The notes below the pieces were generated by a model, which saw only the letters and a program-made list of their open reading frames with translations, was not told where the DNA came from and made no database searches. Both the position numbers and the translations under genes were made by a program. Below are positions 3,431-60,220 of a stretch of DNA of 64,000 nt, piece by piece. The DNA is from Parietichytrium sp. I65-24A (lineage: Eukaryota; Sar; Bigyra; Thraustochytrida; Thraustochytriidae): the NCBI GenBank assembly GCA_012862575.1, contig BLSF01000074.1, forward strand, positions 116,306-180,305. Reading direction: 5' to 3'. Numbering within the stretch: the stretch's first letter is position 1; every line of letters starts with the position of its first letter.

Positions 3431-5599
3431 ACTTTCTTGATTGTTTCTTCCAAGACGTGGGCCAGTGCGAAAGTGTACTCGCTGTGTGTGTACGCGCACT
3501 GGGTACAACTGAATTCTGTGGTACGCGCGGATCTGTGCTTGTGAGGAAGGAAGACACGTTACTCACTTGCAAGATTATGATATTTTTTCGCACACATTTG
3601 CTGAGAAACCATCTCCACAGAAACTCATTTGGAAGCCTTAGCTTGGAAGAATGCCCAGATACATGCAATAAATTAGGAAAAGCATGAAATGCCGGTGATG
3701 ATTGAATAAAGAATCGCATTTGCAGGTAATTCAAGCGTCAAGTGCTAGCTATTTTCCATTGATGACATGCATTTGCCATTTAATTTACGAAATTACTAAA
3801 AATCTGAACTCTGAATCAGTGCTCTGAATCCTGAAAAATTGAGAGTTTTCAAATTTTAAATGCGCAGAACAACGTGAATCGCATAGCGTTGCTAGCAAAA
3901 AGCGTAGTGATTGGCCCGCGACCGTTTTTATTGCAAATTGCAAAATTCAAGTTGAATTGGACGAAGTGGATGGAATGGTTGGCAACATGTTCATTTCACG
4001 GAGAGCCTCAAATGTTCTGCGATCATTTGGGTGTCGACCATTTGAATTTGCGTCAGGGCAGCCAGCATTTTTCCCATGTTCGCCATCTTCAGACGAGCAA
4101 AAAGTACTTGCCGCCCAGGCCGCAGAGCATCCTGTCACTCCTTCTCCGAACTCGCCGTGATCACCCTCAAGATGACATACACCGACTCGAGGACTATCTC
4201 CCCCTGTTCACCGGCATTTTGCAGGTGATGTCGTGCGACGACGATTTGACGACATGGATGGGAGTGATTAGATTACTGTTCGTTCATGAGAATACATTTT
4301 GCACCATACCTCAGATCCGTTTTGATACTGACCTGCAAATCTTCTTGAAGATCCCGCTTTCATCAGCTTGAAAAGCTAATTCGGGATAACTTCGTTTTAT
4401 CGGTCCAGGGTTCCACGATTCGACCGCATCTCCTGGAAAGCAATGGCAATGGCTGGCGCTGACGAGTCACCCGAGTACGAAAACCTTGGCCACCACATCC
4501 GGAAACTCACCAAGTCCTGGCACCTTGTTTGTACCGGTAAGTCCATCGAACACTGTCATAGCACACAGAAGCACACGATCGACCACAGCACACCGCAGCA
4601 CACAGACCAAATACTTCAAGATAATTTATTGAAACCTTTGGAAGGTTTTCAGTTCTGAATTCTGAATTTTGATCTGAATCCTGCGAAACTTGGCATCAAT
4701 TCGACACGTCATAAAGTTCTCTTCACACTCTTCACACTGTGAACCAGTTTGCAACGATTGAGGAGATGCGCATCTGAATTCCGAATATCACGCACCGATA
4801 GCTGCTTTTCATAAGCACTCGTATCGGGCGCGCAGAAAAACAGTCGCGCTGGATATCGTCGCGCCAGCTCGCAAGTGTTCGGAAACGAGAAGCTAGCTTG
4901 GCTGTCGAAATTCAGGTCAGGTGGTCGCGAGCAAGTTTTCCGCGCCAAAAATGGCGAAAGACACCGGTGCGAATTTCGTTCCTGGCCCTGCTTCGAGAAA
5001 CATCTAGCAAGTCACTAAGACGCCCACTACATCTAGTCGGTCTGAATTTCGAAGTTAGTTGGAACGCGAGCAAGTCGGTCCAGAAATGTTTTCCTGAATC
5101 AATTGAGAGATAACTCTATCGACGAAATTGGGAGAAAACGGAGGGGAATGTTGGATGCACGATGTGAAGGCGAACCATCTTGTCGAGAGGTTGAAAAAGA
5201 ACTTGCTTCATCTCGTCAATCTCGAGCTCATCCCAGATCTTTTATTTTGGGGTTATAAGCTTAGGTCCAAAGAATTAACCAGTCTCGCGGTCGTCATTTA
5301 CCGTTACTCCCATTTTATCAATCGACAATGAACAATCAAGATGAAATTTAATCGTATCGATTCATCGACACTGCGACGCACTCGCAGCGCTCTCTCTCTC
5401 ACTTTCTGTATATAATCTTTTTTTTCTTCCTCTCTGCAAACAGAAGAACGAAGCAGTACTGTACGAAGCAGTCCGCCTGTGAGGCTGATGCTCAAGCCTG
5501 AGGTCGGAGTCGGGACCGGAAACAATTCAGAGTATCGCCTTACCCGCACGATAGTCCTGGCCAAAATCTCGTCCCTGTCCTGCCGTTTTTTTTCTATCT

Positions 5600-5655
5600 T
5601 TTTGCATTTTGCATTTTGCATTTTGCATTTTGCATTTGCATTTTTGCATTTGCAT
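5600..5655. repeat. TTTTGCA tandem repeat
   Basis: About seven imperfect copies of a 7-base TTTTGCA unit, shrinking to 6- and 8-base variants at the 3' end. It is simple-sequence DNA in a gene-poor region. Confidence 0.85.
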
Positions 5656-8600
5656 CGACGCTCTCCTCACACAACCCAACATGAGCTTCCAGGTGCTCCA
5701 ACATGAGAGACTCACTCGCTCTCATTGCAATTACGATAAGTTACGACACTGAGGACACTGAGGAATGGTTTTCAGAATTCAGAAGAACAGTAGTTGCATG
5801 GCGTCCCCCCTACGAAACGCACCTGATAGCCTTACTAGTCGCATCTCCTAGGCCTCTCGCGGCGGCTCTTTTTCTTGCCTGCCCGTTCTCACGGGGTGAG
5901 GTACAGTAGCGTACCTATAGCGACCGTGGTAGTCCAACGGGCGAGTCTGAGACGCAGAGAGCTTCGCTCATATTTTTGCATTCCTAACCTCATTTACTTT
6001 TCTTTTTGTAGTCATTCTGAGAGAGAGGGGGAGAGATGCACTGATAAAATATGAGTCAAGGGATATGAATGAGCGCTTCGGTCTTTCGCTTTTCACAGTC
6101 GATCGATGTACTTTTCGTCAACTAAGAAATGAAAGACACGCGAGCGATTCTTGACACTCCTCTCAGATGTGCTCCAGCTGTCCCAGTCTTCCTTTTACGT
6201 AGGGTAGCTAGGACCCTAGGAGTTGTCGGGTGGGATTTCCTCCCTCCTTCTTATTTCTTCGATCAGCTTTTCGCCGCTTGACAAGCTCTAGCGGAATCAA
6301 TAGACACAGATTAATGAAGGTGACCGTTCTGAACTTCTCTGCGCGAATATTGCGAAGCACAAGAACTGGTAGGCGTCTTTATGACCCCTACAAGAGAGGC
6401 CCTCTTGAAAGACTAGTATATTGTTTAGAAGAAGAAAAAGTGCGACTCTGCATTGACTCTTACCATATCATTACCGAAAAGCGTATCAGATGCGATGGGA
6501 GCCTCTCATCCCGCTTGCGCTGTGTGGAAGCAAGGCGAGCGGGCGGGAGGAGGAAGGATCTCCCAAAAAGTTCTTTTATCGTATACTGTAACGCGCTCCC
6601 ATAAGCCGTGGAAGCTTTCTTAGGGCCGGAACTGTTTTCTGGAGTGAAGTAATAGGCAATCACTTAGTTGAAACGTCGGTTCCCTCCTTCCTCTTGGCGA
6701 GAAGTGTGAGAGCATCTGCGGTGGAGAGGAGTCGAGAGAGAAACACCGTGATCCAACAGATTCAACATGATTCAACTCCGACTTTTTCCTTGATCTTGAC
6801 TTTGCGATGAACTGACCGTGAAGGAGAGGAATTGGAACTATTGGAACCGCAAGCAGCCGGTCCATTGCACCACGGTGTGGCTGGCGAGACGAGATATAGA
6901 CAGATAGATTGCCTCGCCCGAACTCGAAACGATATCCCCGATGGTAGCGTATCGGCCATGCGGACCACTACGACCGGTTGCGGAACCCAAAGCGAGCGAG
7001 GAGGATATGGGATTTGGAAATATTGGAACTTGGGAGCTCTTTGTGAACACTTTTTTTTGTTTGTACAGTGACTCCAGTGACCGTACCACATAAAGGCCGA
7101 GAAGGAGCGATAAGATAGTGAAAGTGCAAGTTGAAAGCCAGGCCGCGCTGTTCTCATTCTCTCTTTTTTCAAGACATTTTCGACCGAACCATCCATCCAT
7201 GCTGTGCTGACAGTGAGACTGACTACAGTCGTCTTCAGCAGCGGCGGTAGTACCAATAGTACCAATACACAGTACTCTCAGCAAGTTACCGCTCTTTTCC
7301 TGCTTGACTGGTCAACGACGGAGATGTGAATTCAGAGCAGAGAGTTGTGGCGAAGCTCTTGGTTCAGTGTTTCCGAGATCAAGCTCTTCTTCCTTCGAAC
7401 GAATTGGTGCTCAAGTTCTGTGATTCTGGATAATTACATCTGAATAGATAATAGATAAATGAATATGGCGACACAAGCACATGCATTTGTCAGAACAGCC
7501 AGCACCTTGTCCATCCCGAGTTTGTTCCAGGCAAGAGCTACTGAATACGCTAGCATAGGTTAGCGCCTGGCAGCGTCATTGCCGCAACGGTGTCAATTCA
7601 CGCTCTCCATCTCGGCGTCTCAACCAAGAACTTTCTCATCTCTCATCTTTCATCTGAGCTGGATTCTTCTTGGGACACAAGTGCAGAGAGAGAGAAGGAC
7701 AGAAAGTCAGGCCGGCGATCATCAGAGTTGCCGCTGTAGCCACGAGCTTCCTCCGTCTTTGATTTCCCTTCAGAGACACTGCGCGCCACTTGTCGCCGTA
7801 AAAGATAAAACTTTTCAGAAATCAGAATAGATAGTGAAGCTGTGTGTACTACTTCCCAAAACTAGTAGATTATAGAGAGTACCGCTGAGAGGCGGCGACT
7901 ATCAGAGGAACCGGTAGCTGCGGTGGTAGCTCCAGAGAGGCTGGGAGAAGGAAGGGCTGTAGTGAGGGCCGAAAAGTGGTTCAGCACTGCTGTGCGAAAA
8001 GGCAAGTTTGCTGAAGTGGATGGAGAAAGAGATGGAACAAAGGGAGAAGCGTGGCAGTAAGCGATGTCTGTACGAAACTGTAGTCGCCATCCTCGCCTCG
8101 TCTTTTTGCCAGCATAGAAATAAATCAGAGTCTCCAAGTTCGGTTTTCGTTCCGAACGCATTCCGACTTTCCAACTCTGTTCTCTTCTCGTTATTTCCCG
8201 TTCCCGTGTCGGGAAAAACAACGAGTCATGTCGCTGTCAAGTTTACGATCGAAATGTTCGCCCAGTCAAATGTTTTCAATTGTAAATTGTAAAAGCATTT
8301 GGAATGCATGGGGGGAAAGTAAAGTGCAAAAATGATCTTTTTCCCAACGCAGTTCAAACGCTAACTGAGGTTATCGAGCCACTAGCTCTGTGGAGTTGCC
8401 ACAGCACGTGACTGACTCTTTTCCCTGCCTCTTATGTAGACCGTTATTATTTCCCATTGGAGACTACATAACACGATAGTCCAATTAGGGTTTGGGTGCG
8501 AAGTGTTTCTGGGATAGCTGGAGGCGTAGCGCCGCTCGTAAGACAGCAACTTCGGAGACAACGCCAAGACAAGGAGCCCAGCGGAAAAGAAAAGGATAGT

Positions 8601-9060
8601 GCTAGCGCGCGCTACCTCGAAACATAGGAGCCCCGGACGACTGGCAAAGTGCAATCCATCTAGCACTCCTACTGAAGACGCCTATCGTCTGCAGTGACTG
8701 AACGCTAGCCAGCTCTTCTCTGCTCCTCCTCCTTCCCTCTCCCGGTCCTCCGTCACACTTCTTTCTCCTCCAGTAACACACTTCTTTCTCCTCCAGTACT
8801 GTACGTCCCTACTACCTGCTTAACGCCCCGGCCTAGTCCCGGGAGAAGGCAGAAACCCTCTACGGGTCTCCATGGCGGCGCCTACGGACCCTGCGCCTAC
8901 CCCTGCTATCACAAACCATAATCCAGGCGTGGGGAAGAGCTGGGGTGAAGTCATGCAAAATTGGTGAAATGGGATGGAAGGTCCTATGCACCAGTAGCTG
9001 AGTGCTATCAGCGGGAATTGCAATGCGAAAGTGCTTGATCGAGTTGCCATAGAAACGAAA

Positions 9061-9118
9061 GGAGACAGAGAGAGAGACAGAGACAAAAACAGAGAAACAG
9101 AAAGAGAAAGAGAGAGCA
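9061..9118 (+). promoter_or_regulatory. GA-rich tract upstream of TIL gene
   Basis: A purine-rich GAGACAGAGAGAG-type tract about 330-380 bases before the ATG at 9442, with purines on the sense strand. Similar tracts precede SDHC, GlnRS, ATG14, STT3 and the myosin, so it is a candidate promoter or 5'-UTR element. Function is inferred from recurrence only. Confidence 0.35.
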
Positions 9119-9441
9119 GAGCTCCAATACTGAGTGAGCAACTGACGGGAAGAAGGACACGGGAGCGCAGCAAACAATTATAACAACAACAACAACGACG
9201 ACGACGACGTCACAGACCGTACTCCATTCGGCACAGTCCCCAAACGCAAAACAGCAACACATCAAAAGCAACACAGCAAGCAGGTCATCAAAGCCTTTGC
9301 TCAGCAAACCCCAAAGACCAAAGAGAAGGACTTTGCGCGAGCTGTGCACAAATATACATACATACATAGCAGCTCGGTTCTGTCGCTGTTTTGCAGAGCA
9401 AGTAGATACAGATACATACACACGTTTTCACTTCATCATCG

Positions 9442-10281: not shown

Positions 10282-10467
10282 GCAATGCTGCCGCGTTGCC
10301 GCCACTCCGAATTCACACTCGCCCCACTTGGCGGGGAGCGAGAAATGGGGGACCGAACACTCTTTGGTCCTCCGCATTTCCTTTTCTTTCATTATTATCT
10401 TTTGCCCTCTGTACAATTGCTTGGCTTAAGTGTTCCATCTTGCATCGTGCGTGTAAATGTAAATATA

Positions 10468-10473
10468 AATAAA
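10468..10473 (+). terminator. Candidate polyadenylation signal (AATAAA)
   Basis: AATAAA about 190 bases after the TIL gene stop, in an A/T-rich run. It is likely the 3'-end signal of that gene, by position only. Confidence 0.45.
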
Positions 10474-11384: not shown

Positions 11385-11396
11385 TGTACGCGCGCG
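11385..11396 (+). promoter_or_regulatory. TGTACGCGCG motif upstream of SDHC
   Basis: A TGTACGCGCGCG word 95-106 bases before the SDHC ATG and immediately before the GA tract. It belongs to the recurrent GTGTACGCG family found near most gene starts in this window. Confidence 0.4.
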
Positions 11397-11440
11397 AGAG
11401 AGAGAGAGATACACATAGATTGATAGATAGACAGATAAAG

Positions 11441-11477
<37 letters not shown>

Positions 11478-11478: not shown

Positions 11479-11490
11479 AGGTCGGAAGAA

Positions 11491-14084: not shown

Positions 14085-15084
14085 ACTTGCCACTATGCTG
14101 GTTTGGGATATCGTACGCGAAAGTGTCCTCGCACTCTTCTTTGCAGTCCTCGCAGACACTCAATCTTGAAAGAGACGCACACACTCGTCCAAAATAGTAA
14201 AAGATTTGGCATGATTTGGCTGATTTGGCACAAGTGTCAAGTGAACAACTTTTTCGAGCTTCTGGCTACTCGAGTGGGTAATCACACTAGCGAACAACGA
14301 GCTGTGCGCTCGCCCCAACCGTGAAAGAACAAACGAAAGCTTCACCAGCCTCCCCCCCAGCGTTCCGCGTGATTCGCACTTGCATGTCTCCGCCGGGGTC
14401 GAAGGCTGCCAGGCGGGTAAGAGTAGATACGCTTTACCATAGCAATCTTGCGGAGAGCACCGGGGACGGCAGAATAAAGAAGGAGAAAAGACCCAGCATC
14501 CTACGCCAGGGCGGTAAGTGGTAGCGGCCTTCTAGCTGCAGGGGAGAAGTATCGATCTGATTTTCGGGGCAAAAGAGGCGTGGCGCGTGTGGGGATCGTA
14601 CGTAGCACGTAGTAGTTGGAAGTGCAAGAAAGGAGAGGAATCAACAGAGTTGAGGTTGTCGCGAGAGACAGGAGGGCATCTGGCGCGTACATTTACATTG
14701 AAATTTCTATTTACATTGACATTTACATGTGCATGTGCACGTGCATGTGCTGTTAATTTCGTCGTTGGTGGTCTGGGATATCGCCGCAGTTGGGAAAACG
14801 TAGAGTCCATCTATCCTCCGTGGAGACAGGGCAGGAGGGGTTTTGTTTTGAGAATCGAAAGGCATTGCGCGCATGCGTGTGCTGCCAGGGTCGACGTTGG
14901 TGACTTGAGGGTTTGCCACAGAGCGAAGAAAAGAGGAGATTGTAAAAATCTGTATCGACAGGGGTCTCGCTGAGATTTTGCATGACTTACATTTCGAACA
15001 GAATCTCTTCAAGAAGTAGCTCGCCGCTGGAGAGCGGTGTGAGACTGAGACTGACAAAGTGCGCCGGCGCTTGATATCGCAGGC
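14085..15084. other. Divergent promoter region
   Basis: Lies between the divergent PDI-like (-) and coiled-coil (+) genes. Contains GTACGCGA (14113-14120) directly followed by GTGTCCTCG (14123-14131) close to the PDI-like start, and GCGCGTAC (14683-14690) about 400 bases before the coiled-coil gene, followed by repeated TTTACATT/TGCATGTGCA words at 14690-14755. No gene supported. Confidence 0.45.
14113..14131 (-). promoter_or_regulatory. GTACGCG plus GTGTCCTCG motif pair
   Basis: Two recurrent upstream words sit side by side 29-47 bases before the chosen start of the PDI-like gene. The adjacency of both supports a joint promoter role, inferred from recurrence in the window. Confidence 0.35.
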
Positions 15085-16338: not shown

Positions 16339-17630
16339 GTTTCGCATTACATACCTACTACCAGGTTCAGCCAGGGCATGAAGGGCCTGAGCTCCAGTAG
16401 CACTCGCTGTGAATGTGACTGCAGTACACACTCCACCACAAGTAAAGTCTGTGATGTGATCCAAGTTAGGGGCGAGGCGATGCCACAGACAAGCCAACCT
16501 GACCTTTGCTCGCCTCCACACTGCCACTGGGTTGTGCTATCGCAACCTTACAGACCTCACAGTCAGAAGCTATGTGCGGCACCCCCTCCGCGTGCAACGC
16601 CGAGCATGCCGCGCGGTCCGGGTCTCTCTCGTGCATACCGGTATAGTGACGAGTGGGAAAGAGGCAGTCCACCTATGACTAACACTACCTCTTGCTGTGA
16701 ATCTCTGAACGTCATTCACATTCAATAAAAATTCGCCGACACTGCGGACAGCAGGCTGCGGCTCTGCCCCACCATGCCAAACGCTCCCAATGCCGGAATT
16801 CGACCTCACGCTGACACACCCACCTTTCAGGTTTGCATTAATTGTATCTTCCTTCATTCCTTCTTTCCAAATCTATTTATCTCTTACTCTGTTGACATTC
16901 GCTTCTTCCTCCATCATTCATTCATTCTTCCTTTCTTCCTTTCTTTCTTTTCTTCGCATCAATCAAATCAACTTGAGAACGCACGTGCATGAACATGAGT
17001 AAACCATTGAACCAATTATTTCACAATCAACCAACGAGGTACAAAGAGAGAGAGAGACAACCGAAACTAGCCACTTACTACATCTTTCCCTAGAAGTGCC
17101 CTTACGGTACGGACCACCAAAGGTGTGCACCTCCGGGGTGGCGAGAGTCCTATTGAATACCGTGGACAACTCTTACCAGGCAAGCGTAAGGGTCCTATTA
17201 CTGCTAGTGTACTGTGGGGGATGGTGTACTGTTACCGGTAAGGGTAGTAGAGGCAGTACTAGTACTAGGCCGTGAGAGCGAGGCACGTGTGGTGAGAGTG
17301 GTAGGCGAGCGGGTAGCAGCGCAGCTAGTATTGGCGTTGTCCTCGAGGACAGTGCGCAGCTGTGGGGAGGTACGCGCAGTACTCTTTCTCTCTCTCTGTG
17401 TGTGTCTTTATTTGTTCATTTGTTTCTGTGTTTGCGTTTGCGTTTGTGCTTGTGTATTTGTATGTGTATGTGTATGTGTTGGTGGCTTGTTTAGTTGGTG
17501 ACTTGTTGAGATCCTTCCCTGTCTGTGAAAGGTCCGCGGACGTGTAAGAGCTGGAATCGTGAAGTTTGGAAGCTTGAAGCTTGAGGCTGGAAGCTTGGAG
17601 CTGGAAGGAGTCGGTTGAGCGTAGAGAGAG
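16339..17630. other. Intergenic, 3' UTR and PLD promoter region
   Basis: Contains a candidate AATAAA (16724-16729) for the preceding gene, pyrimidine-rich TTTCTTCC/CATTCATTC runs (16900-16960), a G-rich block (17210-17260), GTACGCGC (17370-17377) and a CTCTCT/GTGT tract (17385-17410) before the PLD gene. Open frames here are low-complexity. Confidence 0.45.
16724..16729 (+). terminator. Candidate polyadenylation signal (AATAAA)
   Basis: AATAAA about 390 bases downstream of the coiled-coil gene stop; plausible but rather distant. Confidence 0.3.
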
Positions 17631-21046: not shown

Positions 21047-22831
21047 TCACGTTCCCCCGGCACCGCTGGACAGCCAGTGCAAGATGTCCTCGTCCTTCGA
21101 AGGCTTTGGTGGTTGCGGACGCTCAATGAGGTCCCAGGTGTCTGCGTCCTCGCCGAACTCGTCTTCTGAATCGTCCTCATCAAAGTGAACAAACTCCATC
21201 GAGTTGGAGTGCTCAAAGTCCCTTTCGACTGCCAAAGCAGCCAAAGCAGCCGCAGAAGTGGGACTCAGCCCTGCAGCGCCTTGCAGTCTCTCCTCCAGCA
21301 GTCTCTCCTCATCTGCGAGGTCGTAGTCTGCCTGCGCGGTGGCGGTGTCGATCCTCCTCCTCGTCGCACCCCTCTTTGTCTCGGCGAGGACTTCCACGTC
21401 TGGTGTAGGAATGGACGCTCGCAACGGTCTTCCTGCTGGCACCCTGCCGACGCGCGAGTCCGCCTCCATGAGCGACTGGTGCACCGTATTTCCGAGCGAT
21501 GGCGAGTGGAACAGCTGCCAGAGGCAGTGCAGGAGCGTCCAATCCTTGACGAAGCTGGCCGGGATGCCCTGATAAAAGCACAGCGCCTCCACGTTGCTGC
21601 GCAGCATGCTGATACCCGCCTCCAGCTCGCTCTCCGACCCACCGGTCAGCAAAACAGTGCCGCCGCCACGCGCTCCCGGCGCTCCTCCGGCCACGCCAAC
21701 ACTCCCTTGGCCACTGTGCGAGCCGCCGTGAGAAAAACCGTGATGAGCACCAGAACCAGAACCAGAACCAGAACCAAAACCAGAACCATGGCGTAAACCG
21801 TACAGACCATGAGATCCATGCGATCCATGTGATCCATGAGATCCATGCACAGCGGCACGCTGCTCGCCGTGCGCATCGCCGTGAGAGCCCACATTACCAG
21901 CATTAGCACCAGCAGCACCAGCAGCACCAGCAGCAGCATTAGCATTAGCAGCACCGTCGCATTCGTCTCCACAATCCGCTTGCCACGGTCCAATGGCCGC
22001 GTCGCCGCCCAGAAACTGCATCTTGAACGGCATCGGCAGCGCCAGATAGCTGGACGCAATCATCAGCACTCTCACCACAATGGCCAACGCCGCCGCTCTG
22101 CGATCTGCTGCCAGCGCTTTGAGCTGCTTCAAATCCGACGGCAGGGCCAGTCCCGCTACCGTTTCCGCTGCCGGGTCGATAGGAAAGAGCTCCACCAGCT
22201 GCATGCACAGCTTCTTCCTCTCCATGGCCACTCTCTCCGACAGGTCTTCCAGCTGCATTCCCAGCCCGCTCAGCAGCACGCCGCCCAGTCCCGTGTCGCC
22301 GGCCGCGCACGTGCGCGCGCGTACCACCTGCTCGTACGCGGCGCGTACGCTTTCCATCCTCCTCGCGTACGCCACCCGCCGCGCGTTCAGCGCCGTTCGC
22401 CGCGCGCGCACGTGCGCAGCGAGGACGGCCGCGCGCCGTTCGTCCGCCTCCACGCGCGCCAGGAGAAGGCCGCGCGCCCTCGCGCTGGCCACGCGCTCCA
22501 CCGCCGCCTGCGCCCACACGCAAGTGTCCTCGCCGCGGACACCACGTACGCCACGTACGCCTTCCCCGCTGGTACCGGTTCTCCCGCTGGTCCCGGTTCC
22601 GGTTCCGGTTCTTGTGCCGGTTCCGGTTCCGGTTCTGGCGGTTCCGGTTCCGTCGGGGACGGCGGTTCCGTGGGACGCGGACTGGGACTGGGACGTCTGG
22701 GACGGGTACGCGGCGCGGAACGTTTCGCGGCGTTGCGCGGCGAGGCTGGCGCGTTGCGCGGAGATGTCGGACACCACGCACTTGGCGCAGACGTGTCGGT
22801 CGGTCTTTTGCGAGCACACCGGGCACTCCAT
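21047..22831 (-). CDS. ATG14: ATG14-like subunit of autophagy PI3-kinase complex
   Basis: 594-aa homologue of ATG14/Barkor, which directs the Vps34-Vps15-Beclin complex to autophagosome formation sites. Evidence: N-terminal double CxxC (C3, C6, C15, C18, reading CPVCSQKTDRHVCAKCV) as in human ATG14; an Ala/Arg-rich helical region (about 105-215); then LVELFPIDP, AALAIVVRVLMIASSYLALPMP, a motif with LRSNVEALCFYQG leading into LLHCLWQLFHSPSLG, and a late SMEFVHFDEDDSEDEFGEDADTW, each echoing the ATG14 order. Unusual: a Gly/Thr repeat after the zinc-like motif (about 60-90) and a Gly/Ser/His repeat region (about 285-385), both from repetitive DNA. UVRAG/Vps38 is the alternative, but the cysteine motif and C-terminus favour ATG14. 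Confidence 0.82.
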   Translation of the reverse strand: MECPVCSQKTDRHVCAKCVVSDISAQRASLAAQRRETFRAAYPSQTSQSQSASHGTAVPDGTGTARTGTGTGTRTGTGTGTSGRTGTSGEGVRGVRGVRGEDTCVWAQAAVERVASARARGLLLARVEADERRAAVLAAHVRARRTALNARRVAYARRMESVRAAYEQVVRARTCAAGDTGLGGVLLSGLGMQLEDLSERVAMERKKLCMQLVELFPIDPAAETVAGLALPSDLKQLKALAADRRAAALAIVVRVLMIASSYLALPMPFKMQFLGGDAAIGPWQADCGDECDGAANANAAAGAAGAAGANAGNVGSHGDAHGEQRAAVHGSHGSHGSHGSHGLYGLRHGSGFGSGSGSGSGAHHGFSHGGSHSGQGSVGVAGGAPGARGGGTVLLTGGSESELEAGISMLRSNVEALCFYQGIPASFVKDWTLLHCLWQLFHSPSLGNTVHQSLMEADSRVGRVPAGRPLRASIPTPDVEVLAETKRGATRRRIDTATAQADYDLADEERLLEERLQGAAGLSPTSAAALAALAVERDFEHSNSMEFVHFDEDDSEDEFGEDADTWDLIERPQPPKPSKDEDILHWLSSGAGGT

Positions 22832-23678
22832 CGCGGACGGTGCACGGTTCAGCGCAGGTACGCGCGGGGAGGAGGAAGGGGAACGGCTGTCCCTCTCTTT
22901 CTCTCTCTTTCTCTCTCTCTCTCTCAGAGGCTCTGTCTTCCCTTGCCGCCGGCCACTCCAAACTCTGATGTGTGTGTATATGTGTTGATAGATGTGTGTG
23001 TATGTATGTATGTATGCTCCGTCCCCGCTGCGTACCCTTCCGTTCTCTCTCTCTCTCTCTCTGTCTGTATAATATAATCAATCAATCCCTTATTTTCTGA
23101 CGAGATGCGTTGGGGCTGGACTAGACTCAGAGTCGGCAGTTCCGCGGAACGGTCGCGGAACGTTCCACCCCGCGTCTTCTACTAGCCTTAACTACCAAGC
23201 TACCAGCTAGCGGCGCACGCCCCGCAGTGACTAACCGTGCGCGAGGACGTCCATAAGAGTGGCTACTCGCGCAGTAGCTTTGCCTCGAAGAGTTTTCTCT
23301 TCCCTTCCTAGGATACACTTAGTCATCCACCACGACTCGGAGCTAATCCTCAATACTACTGCAAATTTTAATAGGGTCTAAACGGGAGGGTTAGTGGAGA
23401 TAGTAGATAGTGCTATCGCCGGTGGCTAGTGGCTTCGTAGTCGTTTGTGTAAGTGTTTTGTTCACATGAATGTAAATGTGAATGAGTACCGAGTATATCA
23501 AATGGCAAGTTGCAACTGATAAATGCATGGGAAGAATGGGCTGGCCAGGCACGAGTAGATGCAGAAAGGTACACGCACTGTGAGCAGAACAATTTCCATT
23601 TCCCTTTAAAAAGTCTACAGTTTTTCAAAAGAGAGAGAGAAAGAGCAAACTCGAAAGATGAAGCAAGTTAAACGATTA
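22832..23678. other. ATG14 promoter region and STT3 3' end
   Basis: Upstream of ATG14: GTACGCGCG (22858-22866), a CT tract on the plus strand (22892-22925; GA on the sense strand), TG/TATG repeats (22970-23020) and a second CT tract (23046-23063). The STT3 3' end lies at the right. No gene supported. Confidence 0.45.
22858..22925 (-). promoter_or_regulatory. GTACGCGCG motif and GA tract upstream of ATG14
   Basis: The motif is about 27 bases before the ATG, with a sense-strand GA tract ending about 60 bases before it. The same pairing occurs at SDHC, STT3 and the myosin. Confidence 0.4.
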
Positions 23679-26558: not shown

Positions 26559-27520
26559 CAGTCAGTCCACGAGATTTTCACGCAGATGCCCTCCGCTGTA
26601 CAACCGATCGATCGAACAACCTAACGCTGGATCTGCCCTCTTCCGACTCCAACTTCCGACTTCCGACTCTCGTTCCGACCTCTCTAAGGGAGACCGCGGC
26701 AGGGAAGTGTACGCGCGGATTTCGTACGCGCTTACCTACCTACCTCTCTCTCTCTCTCTCTCTCTGTCTTTCTCTTTCTGTCTGTGAGTGATTGACTGTG
26801 AGTGAGTGTGATGCAATACATATGATACTTGGATGCAACCGCCCAATTCCTCCTCACTACACGTTTACGGTAGACGTCATTAGCCTTCGGGGAGACTTCC
26901 CCAGATATGGAAAATATCCTCCGCCAGCTGTACTAGAACTGCGGTAGTGTGATATAGCACCGAAGTATCCTTCGATATGGGTGAAGCTAGAGTGGGTAGG
27001 ATGTGGGTAGAAGGTGGTAGATGTGCATATCAGAGACTTATCGGTGGGCGGGTAGGAAGGGGTATGAATAAAGGCCGGTATGAGGCTAGCGCGTTCGTTG
27101 CTATAGCGAGGTGATAGACAGTCGTACGCGTCTGTGCCAGCTCAACGCCCAAAGCTCCTTAAAACATTGTTGGAAAAATGTAATGCCCACAAGCGATGAC
27201 TCATTAAAATCCTACTTACACCTGAAGCAATGCTATTCACAACTATATATCATATACAGTTTCATATGTGTATATTTTCGGATATCGCGTTTTTCGCCAG
27301 CGCCGCTTTGAACAAGTTGGTGGGGGAAAAAATTAAACGAAAAAGTGCGAGGACCCTAAACAATCCATTGAGGTGTCCGCGGGGACACAACAACACGATT
27401 TCCTTCAACCAGGTGCGGAGGAGGAGCGGAAAAGTCAAGTAACCGTAATCGACGGCCAAACAAAACTGTAAAACTGCAAAACAAAGCAAAACAAAGCAAA
27501 ACAAGCAAAACGACAAACGG
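26559..27520. other. Divergent promoter of STT3 and zinc-finger gene
   Basis: STT3 side: GTGTACGCGCGG (26707-26718), GTACGCGC (26724-26731), CT tract (26744-26766, GA on the STT3 sense strand), and a G/T-rich GGGTAGG block (26985-27080). Zinc-finger side: GTACGCG (27124-27130), a GTGTCC...GGACAC inverted repeat (27373-27388) and an AAACAAAGC/AAAACAAGC repeat just before the ATG (27465-27512). No gene seen. Confidence 0.5.
26707..26766 (-). promoter_or_regulatory. Double GTACGCG motif and GA tract upstream of STT3
   Basis: Two GTACGCGC words 149-173 bases before the STT3 ATG, followed further upstream by a TACC repeat and a sense-strand GA tract. One of the clearest examples of the shared upstream layout. 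Confidence 0.45.
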
Positions 27521-28402: not shown

Positions 28403-29325
28403 ACTTTACTTGCAACCAAACGCGAACTTGGTCATGTGTTTGAATACTAAATACGCTATTAGAAAGCACAGCACCTCCATGTCTCCAACAGCTCTTCTTT
28501 CTCATTAACAAACCGAAACCTGTTCACCGGCAAATGCCCGACCCTAACGCTTATACATCGTTGAACAATTTTGACGAGCCATTTTGATTGATTGACCGTT
28601 CGCATTGACTCTGATCGTTTCAACTCACTTTCTCAATTCATGGAAACCAATCTTGATTGACATCTTCAGTTCAACTATAGAGCTATGCAAGTTACGGGCC
28701 AGATAGACATCAGCATAGCGCCAAAAAATCCAAAGAAAAAAATTTAAAACACGATCTTTTCAGTGCCTCGAACTCGGTCCCCCTCTTTTCTCACCGAGGT
28801 CCTACCGGTTCTTAACCTTTACCCATAGCGAGCTCTCACCACACACTCGGGGATCCGCAGAGTGGCCCAAAGCACGCATCGCACCGTCCAAAACGTGTAC
28901 GCGCAGCGTCCCTCGTCGGTTACGCGAGGCGTTTCATAGCCGTTAACGGTGACTGTAGTGCGGGGTCGCGGTCCTTCAAGTCCGCGCGCGGTCGGTGGCA
29001 GCGCTGGATAGGTTTTTGCTCAGGGGGGAAAAAGGATCGGGGGCAAGGACCTGACTGATAGTTGCGAAGGATTTGATACTATCAAGTTGGATATATTGTT
29101 AGATTGTGGAAGATTTCACATTGCATTTGGCCGTGGGCACAGTGGGCACAGTGGGCACAGATTTATTGCTATCCTCGGTTGCAAGAAGGTGGACTGGCGG
29201 CGGGAAGGAAATCCATTTGCGAAATTCGTGGTGTGAATTGCGTACGGGTTTTGGCGCGCTGAAGTGGAGGCGAATTTATGATACAAGAGTTCGAGACCTG
29301 ACCTGAGCTGTAGAATCTCTCAAAG
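28403..29325. other. Intergenic, NUP160 promoter region
   Basis: Contains GTGTACGCGC (28895-28904) about 430 bases before NUP160 and three exact copies of the 9-mer GTGGGCACA (29133-29159). No GA tract. No gene supported; a 66-codon open frame at 29106-29306 spans the repeat and is not called. Confidence 0.45.
29133..29159. repeat. Three tandem copies of GTGGGCACA
   Basis: Exact 9-base unit repeated three times about 170-190 bases before the NUP160 start. It could be a regulatory repeat or simple slippage. Confidence 0.85.
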
Positions 29326-38082: not shown

Positions 38083-38113
<31 letters not shown>

Positions 38114-38168: not shown

Positions 38169-38796
38169 GGCTCCTTTCCCAGACCCATCCCCTCCGCGGT
38201 AGTTAAGCCTATTCGACTGCTACTTCCGTTTCTGATTGTCCAAGTCCAATTCACGGTCATGTCGTTTTGGGCTCTTGTGCTCATATCCATTGCTGTGCAG
38301 GCACTGTGTAGACTGTGTAGACTTTGAAGGCTTTGTTGCTTTGTACGTGCCATGGACGTTCGTGAGCAGAGAGCTTTGACAAACTTCTTGATTGTGTGAC
38401 ACACTTGCACAGATAGTCTTCACAGATGCAGGAGAAAAAAAAAATTGACATTCATTTACGGAGAAACACATTACTATTGTATATCATAAGCTCCAGCCTA
38501 TCATTCGTTAACGGCCACCCAGCGAACAAAGCGAACAGATCTCTCATGCTATGAACAAAGCGAACCAAACATGTTCCTCCTCCGGTGTGTGCACCCTTCC
38601 ACGAACAAAACGAACCCAGAGAACTCGGTCCGCTAGCGTACACACTTCTTGCGACTACTATTGATATGGCTAGATGGACTCTACGCGTCCTGTCCTTCAA
38701 GTTCTGGCCTTCCAATTGCCCGAACCCCTCACAAGGCGTGCACGGAAGCAGCGGGAAAGGGAAGGAGAATTCGCCGAAGAGAGCGACGAGGCGTGC

Positions 38797-38938
38797 GCGC
38801 GTACACTAGGTTCGTTTGTAACCGCACGAGGGTTAGCGCGGTCCGGGTCCTGTAAGAGTAAAGAGGAGAGAGGAGAGAGGAGAGATCTTTGGTGCAGGAG
38901 GAGTCGACTCGTGTGAGGCGGATAAATAGGTGTCCTCG
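38797..38938 (+). promoter_or_regulatory. Candidate promoter elements of WW gene
   Basis: GCGCGTACAC (38797-38806), a sense-strand GAGAGGAGAGAGG tract (38861-38886) and GTGTCCTCG (38930-38938) lie in order 360-500 bases before the likely start. All three recurrent words are present here. Confidence 0.35.
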
Positions 38939-41184: not shown

Positions 41185-44100
41185 TCAAGCTGGATCGATC
41201 AATCCCTCAAGTGAATGCTGCGCACCTGGCAAGAGATTCACGAAGAGTTCCGACGAAAGTGTCTGCAAGGTTGTTATAGCGAGCTGGTAGATTTCCAGAC
41301 GCTCTTCGAATGTCAGTGCCAAGTCCTCGGAGAGCATCTTGTCTATATCAGCAGTGTGCTCGATCCGCTTCAAGTTTTCCTTGAGCAACTTGACACGCGT
41401 GCGCATGGACGCGTCAATGGATCTCTCGTCTGGTGGAGTGTAAGGGAAGCCACTCTCTTCGGTGGCATTCTTATGCGTGAGCAGGAGGGCGAGGATGTCC
41501 TGGGCAAAAATGCTAAGGTGGCTGATCTGCGAGTATGAGAGTATGATTTCGTGAACGTTGTCGGAGGGCATGACGTCCGGGTCGGGCGTAAAGCTGAAAA
41601 AGGTGCGCACGGCGGAGTTCTCGAAGACCTTGGAGCGCTCACTCTTCTGTACGAGCTCTTTCAGCCAAGCCGAGACGAGGTCGAGGCGCAGTTCCGCGAG
41701 CTGGCGCTTGCTTTTCCATTCCCCTCGAGGGACATCAGGAGGAAATTCGGGAACGGATGCCTGCTGTTTCTCCGTGAGGTGAAGGCTGGAGGTGCGCAAT
41801 TGCTTGGCGATGTGGGCGAGTTCAGAGTATCCGACACTGGCCGTCCAAGCAAACTTTGACGCGAAGTTGACGAAGACACTCATATTAATGTCGTACTTGT
41901 AGCCGACGGTGAAAGTGATCGGGTCCTTGAATTGGCTGACGGTGGGTGGATACACGGCCAAATGTTTGTTGGCGCCGAGTTTGGTGGTGTGCAGCGGGAC
42001 CGTGTACCAGTCCATGTTGTCATCGCTGTCTGCGATGGCGCTGATCGGTTTTGAGCATCCGGGGCAGTCTCTCTCAGTGCCGACGGTGATACGCGTGATG
42101 GTGAGGCACTCCGCGCATTGTACGGAGATCTTCTTAACCTGCGAGTTGCCAGGCCTGGAGGATTTCTCTAGTGAGCGCTTCATGTTGTGGAAGGTGATCT
42201 TGTCCACATACCCGTCGGCGTAGTGTTTGGTGAGCTCCTTGATGATTTTCGGCATGTTGGTGGCCTTGAGTGCGTTCTGGTTGGCCAGATATGCGTCCGC
42301 TGCGTTCTTGAAGGCGTCCACGAGGCGCTCGTGGTCTTCGGGGTCTGCGAGCTTGAACTGCAGCATGCGTTTTTGCTTGCGCGAGTACACCTCCACAATC
42401 TCGTCGATGGCTTTGTCGTTGATCACGGCTTCCGCGTCCGCCGGGTCCGGCACCACGTTGCCGAGCTCGGGGCCGATTTCCCCGGTTTCGGGGTCGCGTC
42501 CGTAGTACTTGAAGTGCATGCCGTACACCCTGATGATGCAGCGCTGGAACGTCCCGTTACCCTCCTGGGGCCCGGAGAGCCGTTTATTGCTGAGCCTCTT
42601 GCTGTTCCCGCCGCCGCCGCCGAGGAGGCTCGCAAAGCACGCGAAGGGGTTGGCCCCGGCTTTCCTGCCGCGCGAGTTCTGAACCGAGTCGAACAAAGCG
42701 TCGCCAAACTCGATAACCATGGGTTCCTCGCGCTTGGCCATGACCTTGGACACCATGCGCTCATTCGCCCGGCTTCCCGCGTCCCTCTCGTCCCTCTCGT
42801 CCCTCTCGTCGTCATCCTCGTCCTCCCGATCGTCGCCGTCGCCTCTGCTGCTGCTGCTGCTGGCGCGCGACGCGACGCCGGGCTCATCCGGTTCGGCAAA
42901 GCCATCTTCCAGGTCCGCTGTGATGCCGAAGCCGGCGTCATCGTCGTGGCCATCGCGTTCATCGGCATCATCGGCATCATCTGCTGCGTCTTTCTTGAGT
43001 CCATCCTGCTCCTTGGCCAGGCCTTCATCATCGGCGGCAGCTTTCCTGCTCTGCTCCTCGGCCTCAGCCGCGCGGCGCTCGATCTCAATCCGCTGCTGCT
43101 CCTCCTTCTCTGCCCTCTCCCTGGCCAGCTCCTGCATGCGCCCGAGCTCCGCCTTGCGCGAGGCCTCTTCCGCCGCGAGCGCCTCTTCGCGCAGCTGCTC
43201 CTCGCGCCTGCGCTGCTCCTCCGCGCGCTCCTGCGCCAGCCGCGCCTCCTGCCGCAGCTTCTCCGCGCGCAGCTCGTCCAGCTCGCGCTTGGCCGCCAGG
43301 TACTCCCTGCGTCTGCGCAGCGCCGCCTGCAGCTTCTTCGCCTGGTTGTCCTCCAGCTCGCGCCGCCGCGCCCGCTCCAATGCCTGCGCGAACACTCTCA
43401 CCGCCAGCACCTTGGCGCGCACCCTGCCAGCCAGCGCGCCCACGAAGAACAAACGGAACCGTTCGCCGAGCACCTCCGGGTCCTCGGCATTCTCGGCGTC
43501 CTCGGCATCGGGGTCCGCGAGGACATGCTCAACTTGGTCGAGCATGCCCGGCTTGAAGAATGCGCGCGTGTGGCCGATCTTGAAGGCGTCAGAGGGCAGG
43601 GAGAACGCGCGGAAGAGTGCGCGCAGGAACAGACGGTCCTCGCCGCGGCCGAGGGTCTGCCATGCGCGGATGGCGGATGCTGGGAGGCGGGCGGAGTAGA
43701 GATCCACGAGATCCCGGAACGGCAGACGCGTGGGCAGGCCGCCGCGGAGCACCTCCGCGGTCTGCGGGATGCTGAGGTTCTCCAGCTGGACGAGCACGTA
43801 AGCGGGAGAGAACCAAGCCGTGCCCGGCGCACGCTCCATTAGAGCGTTTGGCTTGATGCAACGGATGAAGCTCGCACGAGTGCCGCCGAGAGTCGCCACA
43901 AGTGACTCGATTTGACCGCGGAAGCGCCCGGCCACGGTGCTAATGCGCTTGGGCTTCTTGGACGATGCTGATGGTGATGTTGATGTTGATGCTGATGCTG
44001 GGAAGAGGGCAGGGAGGACGGGGTGCGACGAGGACGACAGGACGGCAGAGATCTCGGCCGGCAGCTGGTCCACGTTCTTCTCGATGAACTTGCCCACGGT

Positions 44101-46008: not shown

Positions 46009-46062
46009 CGCGTACACACCTCTATCTCTCTGTCCTCGCGTACACGTGGTCCTCGCGTACAC
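46009..46062 (-). promoter_or_regulatory. Three CGCGTACAC motifs upstream of myosin
   Basis: Three copies within 54 bases, 112-165 bases before the myosin ATG; two share the longer word CCTCGCGTACAC. Read on the sense strand they are GTGTACGCG. This is the densest cluster of the motif in the window. Confidence 0.5.
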
Positions 46063-55599: not shown

Positions 55600-55771
55600 T
55601 CAAGTGTGAATGTGTGAACTTTCTGATTGCCTGTTGGTAAGCGTCCTCGATGGCGCTGTTTTCTATTGCTGTGCGATTTGTACAGACTAACGTCCGTTCA
55701 AGAGTAGGGCCGAGAGAGCCGAAAGAAAATAAGACTTCAGGTGGCGTGCGTGTGGTGTCCACTGTCAATCA

Positions 55772-55777
55772 AATAAA
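55772..55777 (+). terminator. Candidate polyadenylation signal (AATAAA)
   Basis: AATAAA about 170 bases after the PI4K stop, in TCAATCAAATAAATG. It lies between convergent genes. Confidence 0.4.
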
Positions 55778-55894
55778 TGTGATTTTCTTTTACGTACAAC
55801 AAAATGCAATTCAAGACCGCTAATAGTGTGTTTCATTGGTACTGACGGAGAGTACAGATAGCTCGTTCATCAAAGCCAATCGGAGCCAATCGAA

Positions 55895-57538
55895 CTACAT
55901 GGGCGAGGCCCCAACTCTTGCGAGCCAGTCTTCATGAACAGACTCGTTCGCAGCGGAGGAGAGCGATTCTACCTCATCGTGTACAAGTTGTTCGAATCGA
56001 GAGAGTTTCTTGGGCTTACTGGCCCGGCTAGATTGCTCACTCAGCTCCCCGTCACTGCTGGCGTCGTCCCCTTCCTCCTCCTCCTCATCATCATCATCCT
56101 CGTCTTCGTCATCGCCGCCTTCTTCCTCTTCGTCGGACTCCACCTCCTCCAAACCACTTTCTTCCTCGTCCGTCACATCCTGAAAGTTGTCATTACCCGC
56201 CGGTGAGGTTTGGCCGCGACGTGCCCTTGGGGCTTCCTCGTCAGCGATATTTTTCATGTCTTCCTCCTCGTCGTCGTCCGAATCTAACAGCGCAAAGTCA
56301 AGAGCAGAAGCAACCCCTTCATCCTTCTCCTGACCGAATGGCTTTTGGGGAATTAAGGGACTTGCACCGCCCGTAGATGGACGGGCGGAAAGAGTTGGGC
56401 TGACTCGCTCAGCTTGCCATTGAGAAAATTTGCCGTCGATGATTTGCGACCGCGGAGAGGGTGAGAACTGCGAGCCGCTTCCCTTCGAGATCACGGAGGA
56501 AGCCATTCCTGGTGAGCGGCCCAGAGTGCCTTGCTCAAAGATGGTTTGCCAGCAAACGTTGGTTGACTCTGGCGTTCGGTTGATGGTGGCGTGCTTTCCC
56601 GTTGACGACGGTGGCAGTGGCGGTTGCTTCTTCAACTTCTTTTGCCCCGACCCGCCTCGAGTGGCCGCAAAACTCGACGCAGCTCTCAAGTCATTCAAGT
56701 CTCGGTTCAATTCCAGCAGCTTGTTCTCTAGCTGTGTAATATAAGTGTCCTTCTTGCGCATTTCGCTCTGCTGGCGCTCGTTCTGCTCTAATAGGTAATG
56801 TACACGTCGAACGGCGCCTAATACTTGCGTGTGTTTGCTTGCCAGGAGCTGCTCGGCTTCCTTGAGTTTCTCTCTTCGGGAAGTCTTCGCAAGAGCCTTT
56901 TGCTTGGAAAGTTTTTCCACTCTGTTTTGCAGCCTCGTGATGTCAAGTTGGGCCTGCTTGAGTCTAGCCTTGGTCGTTTCTAGCTCTGTTGCGTGCGAAG
57001 GCTCTACTTTATACGCTTCGAAAGAAGGTGGTGGCTCACTCAATTTAATTAGTCCGTCCATTTCAGATGTCATTCCTCCAAGACTGTCAAAGACCGACTC
57101 TGCACGGTGCATTTTTAATTTGAACTGTTCACTACTTCTCATTGTTTCCGCTAGTAGCATGCGCAGCTTGTCCAAGCTGCGTTTCTGCTCTTGCATCTTT
57201 CCCAGCGCCAGATCTCTCTGCTCACAAGTCTCCTCCACGAGTTGCTCCTTCACCTTGACCATTTCCATCGCCTCATCCCTCGCTTCCCTTGCCTCTCTCA
57301 GCATTGTTTCCAGCTCTCGTATGCGAGAAGCAGACGAAGCACCTCCGCCGGTCTCAGCAAATAAATTCCGCATGGCACCTTTGCTCACATGAGAAGCAGA
57401 GAGAGCATTTTCCAAACTCAAATTCTCGTCCTCTTCCCCCTTCTGCTCCACTTGCTCCCCGTCCGCGAGCAGCTTTGCCAGCTGTCTTTCCGTGCTGCGT
57501 ATTCTTTGCAGCTGAGCCATTTGAGTCGACCTCCGCAT
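55895..57538 (-). CDS. Acidic coiled-coil protein, 547 aa
   Basis: Not recognised. Residues about 65-150 and 175-285 are strong coiled coils (e.g. IRELETMLREAREARDEAME and a run near KLSKQKALAKTSRREKL). Residues 290-420 are Ser/Pro-rich and probably disordered. An acidic block (about 415-500) has long Glu/Asp runs, followed by a basic-acidic tail ending in SVHEDWLARVGASPM, where the final helix may be a short interaction motif. An alternative start is Met7. No membrane span. Such a layout is common in nuclear or cytoskeletal scaffold proteins; no family is proposed. Converges with the PI4K gene, about 295 bases apart. Confidence 0.75.
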   Translation of the reverse strand: MRRSTQMAQLQRIRSTERQLAKLLADGEQVEQKGEEDENLSLENALSASHVSKGAMRNLFAETGGGASSASRIRELETMLREAREARDEAMEMVKVKEQLVEETCEQRDLALGKMQEQKRSLDKLRMLLAETMRSSEQFKLKMHRAESVFDSLGGMTSEMDGLIKLSEPPPSFEAYKVEPSHATELETTKARLKQAQLDITRLQNRVEKLSKQKALAKTSRREKLKEAEQLLASKHTQVLGAVRRVHYLLEQNERQQSEMRKKDTYITQLENKLLELNRDLNDLRAASSFAATRGGSGQKKLKKQPPLPPSSTGKHATINRTPESTNVCWQTIFEQGTLGRSPGMASSVISKGSGSQFSPSPRSQIIDGKFSQWQAERVSPTLSARPSTGGASPLIPQKPFGQEKDEGVASALDFALLDSDDDEEEDMKNIADEEAPRARRGQTSPAGNDNFQDVTDEEESGLEEVESDEEEEGGDDEDEDDDDEEEEEGDDASSDGELSEQSSRASKPKKLSRFEQLVHDEVESLSSAANESVHEDWLARVGASPM

Positions 57539-59258
57539 GGCCCAAATTCGCTACGCCAAAACGCACTCCAAACCACGCCAGGCCCAGTATAAGCCAACAC
57601 AAATTCAAAGGCCACTTGCAAATCTCTCGCGATCTTCCTGGACAGGACGACGCCAACTTGCCAAGAAAGAGAGCTGACTTTTGAATTAAATGCGACCAAC
57701 TTCTCGAGCTCCCAAGCTAATTTTAACTTAAACCAGAGTCAACCTCGGAGATCCCTCGCCTTTGAGCCTTGCAAACTACCAAAACACCACGCTCCACGCA
57801 CGGCTATTCTCCAAAGTAAAAGAAACCAAGCTCCAAATCTATAATTCTATAGCTAGCCACCAAGATTCTTCAACAAGACAAGACAAGAAAGCTTTCGCTC
57901 CACGCACTCAGTTGTCACTGGTAGTTGCGATCCTCCAACCAAATCCACCGCTGTTCGAAAAGCGCTTCAAAGTTTCGAAGTTTTAAAGTTTCGACGCACT
58001 TTCTCGCAAGAAATTTCCCACTGTCCGCGCACCAGGCACTATGTACTCGCGTACTCCTATGTAAAGTCCGCGCGTACGTTTCACAATGTAGAACTCAGGT
58101 ATCTTTGCTCATGCAGTGTCCCATGCATCAGCATCTGCGGCACAAAATGTCCAACCTACTTGAACATTAATAGCCTCGCTATCACTACTTTAGCAGATTT
58201 GCATAGGGACAAAGTGGAGGCCTAGTGGTTTTATATATTGCTGACGACTAGGACACGAGAATTTTTTGTTTGTAGCGATGGTGGTTATTGTTTATGATAG
58301 AACTCGCTGTTTTGGCCGTTGTGGGACTTTGTTTCTAGGCTAGTAGAATCGTAAGTAGATAGTAATAGTTTTGGTGCATGATAATAGCAATCATTGTGCG
58401 CCTCCAAGATGTGGTAACTCAAATCATCAATCAATGCAATGCAATTTTACATGTTAATCAAACTATGAATGAAGCAGCGAATTGATGAATGAAGCAGTCA
58501 TCAGTTCTGACATCGACATCGCTTTAACTTGAAGATATATTTGGATGCACGAAGCAAGGGTCCCTCCCGATCCATCGGCTGGAATGTCCTTCAAGTGAGA
58601 TGGTTAACTTCATGCGAGTTCGTTTCCGCCCTTCGAATGCCTTTGAGACGGAATTGGTTAGGTCCCGGGACTTTGGGCAAGTCCCTTATCGCGCTTATCG
58701 GGCTTGCAACCGATCCGATGGGCCAAGTTCTCGACCGCCGTCAGAAGGCTTGTACGCGAGATCGGCCGTGGGTAAGTTGCACGCCGTTTCACGCCGCAGC
58801 ATGCTCGACTAGCTAGAGGCGGCGCGAGTAGCAGGAACCAGTTTTGTTGGTCGGTTGACAATGAAGAACGGGTTTTCGTTGTGATAGGTTTTGCCATGTA
58901 GGTCGACGAAAACCTTGCGCTTCGGAACTAGGCTCAATAGATCCCTCAACTTCCCGTCTGGGATCGCATTCTAGATATCGATCTTGGTTTTGACCTCCAT
59001 CCTCTGCCGCCCATCCTCCAGCAATCGTCGAACCTTGGAGCCCAGAGTTCCAGACAAGCCACACGCAACATCATTCGAAGAGACGATGCATAGAAGTTCG
59101 TTTCACGTTTCACGCGAAAAGCAGTCATCGCAATGAAGAGGGCCCACGGTCCATGTGTTGAAACAGAATTATCCAAGAGCCACGAGAGCCCTGCGCAGGG
59201 CAGTGTCAATGTATTAATTGTCTTTTCGTGGAATTTAATCTTGCCATCTGCCCTGAAG

Positions 59259-59675
59259 AACTCATTCGATTCATTCTATTGAAAGTAAAGTATGACACAA
59301 TCAAGAATCAAAGATTTTGCGAAAACATTTGAAACTGCCAATCATCAACACACAAGAAAGACTTTGTCTACAAGCAAGAACGAAAGGGTTTGTTTGCGCA
59401 CTTTGCTCTCATTTCCTGTTCGACATGACATCGACATTGAGACCGACGACTGGATGGATCTTGCAACTCATTCGATTCATTCAAGTAAAGTATGGCACAA
59501 TCGAAGAATAATAAACGGTTCGTGAAAACAACTGAAACAACGAATCATCAACACACAAGAAGGACTTTGTCTACAAGCAAGAACGAAAGGGTTTGTTTGA
59601 GCACTTTGCTCTCATTTCCTGTTCGACATGACATCAACATTGACATCGACATTGACGACGACTGGATGGATCTGT
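59259..59675. repeat. Tandem duplication, unit about 206 bp
   Basis: Two head-to-tail copies: one from 59259 (AACTCATTCGATTCATTC) and one from 59465. They share a run around ACTTTGTCTACAAGCAAGAACG and end GACTGGATGGATCT at 59461 and 59673. They differ by scattered substitutions and a 6-base gain of ATTGAC-type sequence in copy 2. Each copy is open in the same frame over about 50 codons, but with only two similar copies this does not prove coding. Confidence 0.85.
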
Positions 59676-60198
59676 TAGGCAAGCGCCTAACTCTCTCCCA
59701 TACTCTATCCTACCAGCGGTACGATTGCAGACTAGCTACTGCCGACTCCCGGGCGCGGACATCTCTTCTCTAATTTCTCCTTGCCCCCCCTCTCTTCAAC
59801 ACTTCAAAACTTACTCCTACCAGCATGTAGCATCGTAATTAGTATCTGCACGTCCCTACCAGATTCATCGCCTCGCTGCCCTCGAGGAGCGGCAATCCTA
59901 TCATTTGCGGTATATACTACTAACGCTCGGTCGCAACAACAACCGCACATGGGAGACTATACCAAAACAGTAATAAAGTCCTATAGAAGAAGAGAGGAAG
60001 AGTGAGTGCGCTCGCAGAGGAATTGCGCATCGCAAAAACCTGCGACGCGCGGCGTCTCTCACGGGCGGCGCGTAATTCGTGCATCGCAGAAGCAACCTGT
60101 AGTGAGGCGGGCCGCGGGTCGGGGCAAGCCTCTGAGGGAGGGGCGAGCGCATCCGCTCAGTGGACGACAGACTGTAACAGCGGTTGATCCTTTTTGGC

Positions 60199-60220
60199 GG
60201 TGTACGCGCGGTGTACGCGC
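60199..60220 (+). promoter_or_regulatory. Tandem GGTGTACGCGC motifs
   Basis: Two exact, abutting 11-base copies of the recurrent motif, about 85-105 bases before the first plausible ATG (60305) of the following gene and 40 bases before a good donor-like AAG|GTGAGT at 60258. Confidence 0.5.

Follow-up and report, generated by a model that had tools for sequence, protein, structure and literature searches.

A degenerate half-site and its 12-bp dyad upstream of predicted genes in Parietichytrium sp. I65-24A: a putative promoter-proximal protein-binding site

The stretch of DNA analysed here (the window) is the last 64 kb of a 180,305 bp contig (BLSF01000074.1, C74 below) in the 42.54 Mb, 172-contig assembly of the thraustochytrid Parietichytrium sp. 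I65-24A. It holds, among others, genes that Pfam assigns to PLD, C2H2 zinc-finger and myosin proteins as well as predicted ATG14-like, NUP160-like and WW-domain genes, and Rfam and tRNA scans of the window gave no matches. Upstream of these genes recurs the 9-mer GTGTACGCG or its core GTACGCG, which an earlier note on this DNA had put forward as a candidate new promoter element. We find that the real unit is a degenerate half-site, GTMCBCGS, found in two versions, the extended half-site GTGTMCBCGC and the 12-bp dyad GTMC-NCGN-GKAC (GTMCNCGNGKAC), and we assign a probability of about 0.65 to the reading that the 9-mer is one spelling of half of a putative promoter-proximal protein-binding site occurring in these two forms.

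Counted on both strands, the 9-mer has 10 exact matches in the window, against a mean of 0.27 and a maximum of 2 in 100 dinucleotide-preserving shuffles, and the core has 30, against a mean of 4.3 and a maximum of 9. According to the gene model used throughout, a simple hidden Markov model (HMM) trained on long reading frames, nine copies of the 9-mer are non-coding and one is coding, as the earlier note had estimated, and the core divides into 20 non-coding and 10 coding copies. All 19 non-coding positions given in that note are present, at most 1 bp off or as a core within the 9-mer, but its list of cores was incomplete in that it omitted the non-coding copy at 58752 and named only one of the ten coding ones. 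Five copies of the core, one of them a near-dyad, lie within the predicted ATG14-like coding region at 22318-22706. The genome scan that the note had proposed likewise sets the 9-mer apart, with 938 copies against 393 of the reversed word and 324 of GTACGTGCG, a word of identical dinucleotides; this corresponds to a mean of about 1.4 copies per 64 kb, and since the 10 copies of the window are about 7 times that mean, the window is atypically rich. The bare core, however, shows no enrichment over its reversed word genome-wide (6112 versus 6534), and because of this, and because spellings with GTCC behave alike, GTACGCG alone was rejected as the element.

The signal of the core is positional. 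Placement was analysed in a 314-kb sample (0.7% of the genome), in which the dyad was also defined and which consists of 200-300 kb of contig C1, 200-300 kb of contig C5 and C74 from 66306 to its end, the window included; the model predicts 100 genes here, and 96 upstream and 94 downstream segments of at most 500 bp were taken from it. In this sample 14 of 15 copies of the 9-mer are non-coding, and the core occurs in 23 of the upstream segments versus 2 of the downstream ones. In a count over 264 kb the core reached a density per kb of 0.51 in divergent, 0.33 in tandem and 0.06 in convergent regions; coding DNA had 0.12.

Some words lacking GTACGCG likewise occur in upstream but not in downstream segments, namely GTCCTCGC (12 upstream versus 0 downstream), GTCCGCGG (11 versus 0) and GTCCCCGC (9 versus 0), and letter-by-letter variation brings out GTCCTCG (21 upstream versus 4.8 expected), GTCCGCG, GTCCCCG and GTACTCG as further upstream-specific spellings of the half-site. 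The dyad emerged from pairs in which two sites on opposite strands are separated by four bases, and its spacing is exact, since a spacer of 4 between GTMC and GKAC is seen in 22 upstream pairs and every other spacer from 0 to 12 in only 1 to 10. The 48 dyads listed for contig C1 have 96 arms, which use GTAC (50) and GTCC (46) about equally; at position 4, T (53 arms) predominates over G (24), C (18) and A (a single arm). Genome-wide there are 1632 dyads in 42.5 Mb versus 256 matches to the reversed pattern, 2281 extended half-sites versus 489, and 23,283 half-sites versus 15,139; the enrichment of the dyad and of the extended half-site leads us to conclude that both forms are real, GTGTACGCG belonging to the extended half-site.

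Chance, base composition, CpG clustering or a dispersed repeat might be invoked for such counts, and the failure of the 7-mer core to exceed its reversed word, together with the fact that CGCGCG is richer in the window than in the sampled C1 and C5 stretches, could be read in that sense, but the explanation is so improbable as to be negligible. Swapping the arm letters while keeping the central CpG leaves 338 matches genome-wide (330 for the reverse of that control), and moving the same letters one base further out in each arm leaves 102 (reverse, 149) in place of 1632, which furnishes the element with a built-in negative control. Furthermore, 300 shuffles of the 83 upstream blocks of the sample gave on average 0.13 dyads, 12.9 half-sites and 0.30 copies of the 9-mer, where 17, 96 and 12 were observed, and the comparison with shuffled non-coding DNA suggested in the earlier note came out in its favour. 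Base composition, which the same note had named as a possible refutation, is contradicted for the dyad and the 9-mer by these matched controls (reversed, identical-dinucleotide, swapped-arm and shifted-arm words), on which an artefact of composition or CpG was rejected, but the bare 7-mer lacks enrichment genome-wide. A dispersed repeat was likewise rejected, since 60 dyads and near-dyads have no flanks in common except where their windows overlap. An unconstrained expectation-maximisation motif search collapsed into purine-rich composition and was discarded.

With respect to genes, the half-site is found at 45 of 96 starts versus 6 of 94 gene ends, so that it is nearly absent downstream, and its density is 3.0-3.75 per kb at 50-200 bp upstream of starts and 0.27-0.43 per kb past 600 bp. 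It has no preferred direction, 63 half-sites being oriented opposite to the gene and 50 in the same sense, and because of this neutrality an RNA element in the 5' untranslated region is unlikely. The sample holds 18 dyads, of which 17 are non-coding and all of these lie within 600 bp upstream of a start, at a median of 181 bp; the remaining one, in the myosin coding region, is probably due to chance. Since the starts come from a simple HMM, all distances refer to predicted coding starts and not to transcription starts. Beyond the sampled stretch of C1, the first six dyads are all non-coding and four of them precede a predicted start by no more than about 500 bp, a locus retrieved for its protein family (L036) carries a dyad about 198 bp ahead of the coding start predicted there, and an all-coding locus (L029) holds three half-sites. 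The earlier description as a promoter element is therefore upheld as regards the bias in position toward predicted coding starts, which is that of promoter elements as a class, and as regards the controls for composition, CpG and letter order, but it has to be amended, GTGTACGCG being just one of the spellings that a larger, degenerate element can take.

The sites of the window are collected in Table 1. Six of its full dyads are non-coding and one is coding, and four of the non-coding ones enclose cores at 46037, 46054, 58048 and 58070 that had been listed in the earlier note; among the other sites listed there, those at 3521, 26709, 26724 and 38793 are near-dyads with one mismatch and the remainder are half-sites or the bare core.

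Table 1. Dyads, near-dyads, half-sites and cores in the window
Positions	Strand	Feature	Context
3488..3496	+	extended half-site GTGTACGCG	upstream of minus-strand gene starting near 3419
3521..3532	+	near-dyad GTACGCGCGGAT, 1 mismatch	
11386..11392	+	half-site GTACGCG	about 97 bp upstream of coding
14113..14119	+	GTACGCG core	about 33 bp upstream of minus-strand coding start
14684..14690	-	half-site	divergent region
17339..17350	.	full dyad GTCCTCGAGGAC, perfect palindrome	287 bp upstream of PLD gene (Pfam)
17370..17376	+	half-site	adjoins 17339 dyad
22858..22864	+	half-site	at predicted start of ATG14-like gene
26707..26720	+	GTGTACGCGCGGAT, extended half-site and near-dyad (1 mismatch)	
26724..26735	+	near-dyad GTACGCGCTTAC, 1 mismatch	
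27124..27130	+	GTACGCG core	
27375..27386	.	full dyad GTCCGCGGGGAC	114 bp upstream of C2H2 zinc-finger gene (Pfam)
28895..28903	+	extended half-site	upstream of NUP160-like gene
38793..38806	-	GTGCGCGCGTAC, extended half-site and near-dyad (1 mismatch)	upstream of WW-domain gene
43513..43524	.	dyad match, probably chance	in myosin coding region; sole coding dyad of 18 in sample
46009..46017	-	extended half-site	96 bp upstream of myosin coding start
46032..46043	.	full dyad GTCCTCGCGTAC	125 bp upstream of myosin gene (Pfam); holds 46037 core
46049..46060	.	full dyad GTCCTCGCGTAC	142 bp upstream of myosin gene; holds 46054 core
58043..58054	.	full dyad GTACTCGCGTAC	506 bp upstream of gene 55907-57542; holds 58048 core
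58066..58077	.	full dyad GTCCGCGCGTAC	529 bp upstream of gene 55907-57542; holds 58070 core
58752..58758	+	GTACGCG core, non-coding	absent from earlier note
60200..60208	+	extended half-site	first of tandem pair 11 bp apart
60211..60219	+	extended half-site	second of tandem pair

Gene orientation alternates strongly, in that the 95 neighbour pairs of all three sampled stretches comprise 35 divergent, 34 convergent and 26 tandem ones, and the 28 pairs of the C1 stretch (L009-L018) that are separated by 40 bp or more comprise 13, 12 and 3, respectively. The non-coding dyads are distributed as 15 in divergent, 2 in tandem and none in convergent regions. A chromatin boundary, a replication origin or another structural element between divergent genes, itself not activating transcription, would be in agreement with this preference, with the alternating gene order and with two extra dyads away from recognised genes; it is nonetheless highly unlikely, since the sites peak 50-200 bp from the nearest start and are present in tandem regions too. 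Two perfect GTACTCGAGTAC palindromes on C1 (L038 and L039, C1:309995-315710) stand about 3.7 kb apart with no recognised coding around them, and they have no flanking sequence in common. As to other signals, in a 264-kb sample that includes the window TATAAA is scarce upstream of starts (0-500 bp) but frequent over the 400 bp that follow gene ends, and GA/CT repeats are several-fold denser over the 400 bp that precede starts than past gene ends. Further words frequent in non-coding DNA are CTAGCTAG and GAAGGAAG in the 314-kb sample, where TGACTGTG is found on both gene sides, and TACCGGTA in the window.

A full dyad lies within 600 bp upstream of 14 of the 100 sampled genes, and Pfam names 12 of these, the other two being one without a match and one outside the scan. 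The named genes encode PLD, C2H2, myosin, v-SNARE, IF-2B family, importin-like, Gpi16 (GPI transamidase), MRP-L46, MRS2-like, Fz-like (below the cut-off of its model), fatty-acid hydroxylase and Dcc1 proteins, and judging by these names we read them as mixed general housekeeping genes and not as one pathway. This bears on the possibility that the element serves a regulon-specific activator, for instance of the cell cycle, copper or stress, instead of a general promoter factor. Many eukaryotic dyads are indeed regulon sites and a full dyad is present at only 14 in 100 genes, but an activator of this kind is unlikely given the mixed functions of the dyad targets and the presence of half-sites at nearly half of the starts.

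We infer that a sequence-specific DNA-binding protein would bind the element in intergenic regions, probably as a dimer on the two-fold symmetric dyads (which may also be written GTMC-BCGV-GKAC), and either more weakly or with a partner on half-sites. Like general regulatory factors in other organisms, such a factor may help to make chromatin accessible and to bring the transcription machinery to TATA-poor promoters of housekeeping genes.

Several observations weigh against this reading. About half of the starts have no half-site, and the density profile is not a single clean peak but climbs a second time between 400 and 600 bp (2.0 and 1.35 per kb). Outside the sample, no coding is recognised within 1 kb of two of the six dyads mentioned above, both of them GTACTCGAGTAC, and of four copies of the 9-mer in L001, L002 and L008 two lie in predicted coding DNA and two in non-coding DNA before a start. 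It should also be mentioned that the starts were predicted by a simple HMM without transcripts, so that introns might make some exon starts pass for gene starts, and that the positional test drew on the very 314 kb to which the degenerate pattern had been fitted, the genome-wide counts and the extra loci being the independent evidence. Furthermore, 68 of the 97 upstream half-sites have no second arm even when one mismatch is allowed, and binding of a dimer is therefore not required to explain them. These isolated half-sites carry an outer GT extension (G at -2 with a frequency of 0.51, T at -1 with 0.41) and prefer G at position 4 (0.54), where dyads prefer T, which speaks against a dimer as the only mode of binding.

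The same differences, along with the genome-wide enrichment of the extended half-site by itself, might suggest that two factors are involved, a monomeric or asymmetric one on GTGTMCBCGC and another on palindromes such as GTACTCGAGTAC. We regard this as doubtful, since the core GTMCBCG and, within the sample, the promoter zone are common to both forms and since mixed dyads are frequent (6 of the 48 listed for C1), an example being GTACGCGAGGAC. A more far-reaching version of the single-factor reading, which we advance only tentatively, is that a general regulatory factor peculiar to this lineage, whose DNA-binding class has so far been matched to no known site, reads both the dyads and GTGTMCBCGC and so marks about half of the promoters in a TATA-poor genome of alternately oriented genes. 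Its counterparts elsewhere would be DREF, Reb1 and BANP, the last of which binds the CGCG element of vertebrates.

Promoter grammar is known in few eukaryotic lineages, and the dyad offers an exact, testable 12-bp target with some 1600 copies in one genome. The case also illustrates that a word picked out by eye from a single window may turn out to be the conspicuous half of a longer, degenerate element.

Some further observations concern the genome as such. A single open frame of 5583 codons (C66:8562-22499) has four ketosynthase-region matches to a polyketide/polyunsaturated fatty acid synthase model and is, by its sequence, a giant polyketide-synthase-like gene, and no match to a PfaA-type model above its cut-off was found in the genome; nor was a chlorophyll-binding family found there. 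The EF-1 alpha in L035 is without the 12-residue insertion that is a signature of opisthokonts.

Of the known binding sites, the SBP-domain or GTAC copper-response sites of green algae and plants have the GTAC letters in common with the element, but their GTAC core is obligatory, whereas here GTAC and GTCC are used about equally within a spaced dyad, and membership fails on the 46 GTCC arms among 96. A search for SBP-domain proteins gave no match in the genome, though control genomes were equally silent. The CAMTA (CG-1) site is vCGCGb, and membership in this class fails as well, since 71 of the 96 arms have T or C at position 4 and therefore no CGCG core, and GTCCTCG is also enriched upstream. 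The E-box CANNTG of basic helix-loop-helix proteins, which would require CA..TG about the symmetry centre, is made untenable by the single arm in 96 with A at position 4.

A limited literature search did not find the element described. Among the matches listed for the exact dyad spellings, titles suggest oligonucleotides used in cell-biology work, those for the extended half-site appear unrelated, those for thraustochytrid or labyrinthulomycete promoters include nothing relevant, and the copies of GTACGCG in PMC10183819, listed for that core together with promoters, are all in primer sequences. Main-text passages on systematic sets of transcription-factor or promoter motifs from another protist lineage, the oomycetes (PMC11267843, PMC3597505, PMC3520976), contain no GTAC...CG dyad, supplements and logo figures lying outside these passages. 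The oomycete core promoter elements INR, FPR and DPEP are likewise protist promoter motifs without a TATA box, but they are described as lying around the transcription start (PMC3599244, in whose main text GTAC and GTCC do not occur and CGCG occurs once, in a primer), and by that description they are set apart from the present element, which has no preferred direction and is scattered through the 50-600 bp ahead of coding starts.

The closest known counterpart by type is the CGCG element of vertebrates, TCTCGCGAGA, which passages of PMC6192621 place in TATA-less CpG-island promoters. Its consensus, with the centre CGCG, is not matched by the dyad GTMCNCGNGKAC, which has GTMC arms and the centre NCGN, belongs to another lineage and is known here from sequence alone. 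The setting is BANP-like by position, with 17 of the 18 dyads at most 600 bp upstream of predicted (not transcription) starts, 15 of them in divergent regions, with TATAAA scarce and with mixed genes, and both elements, as far as the passages on the vertebrate one allow the comparison, are short palindromes with a central CpG near housekeeping starts that are linked to TATA-poor or bidirectional promoters.

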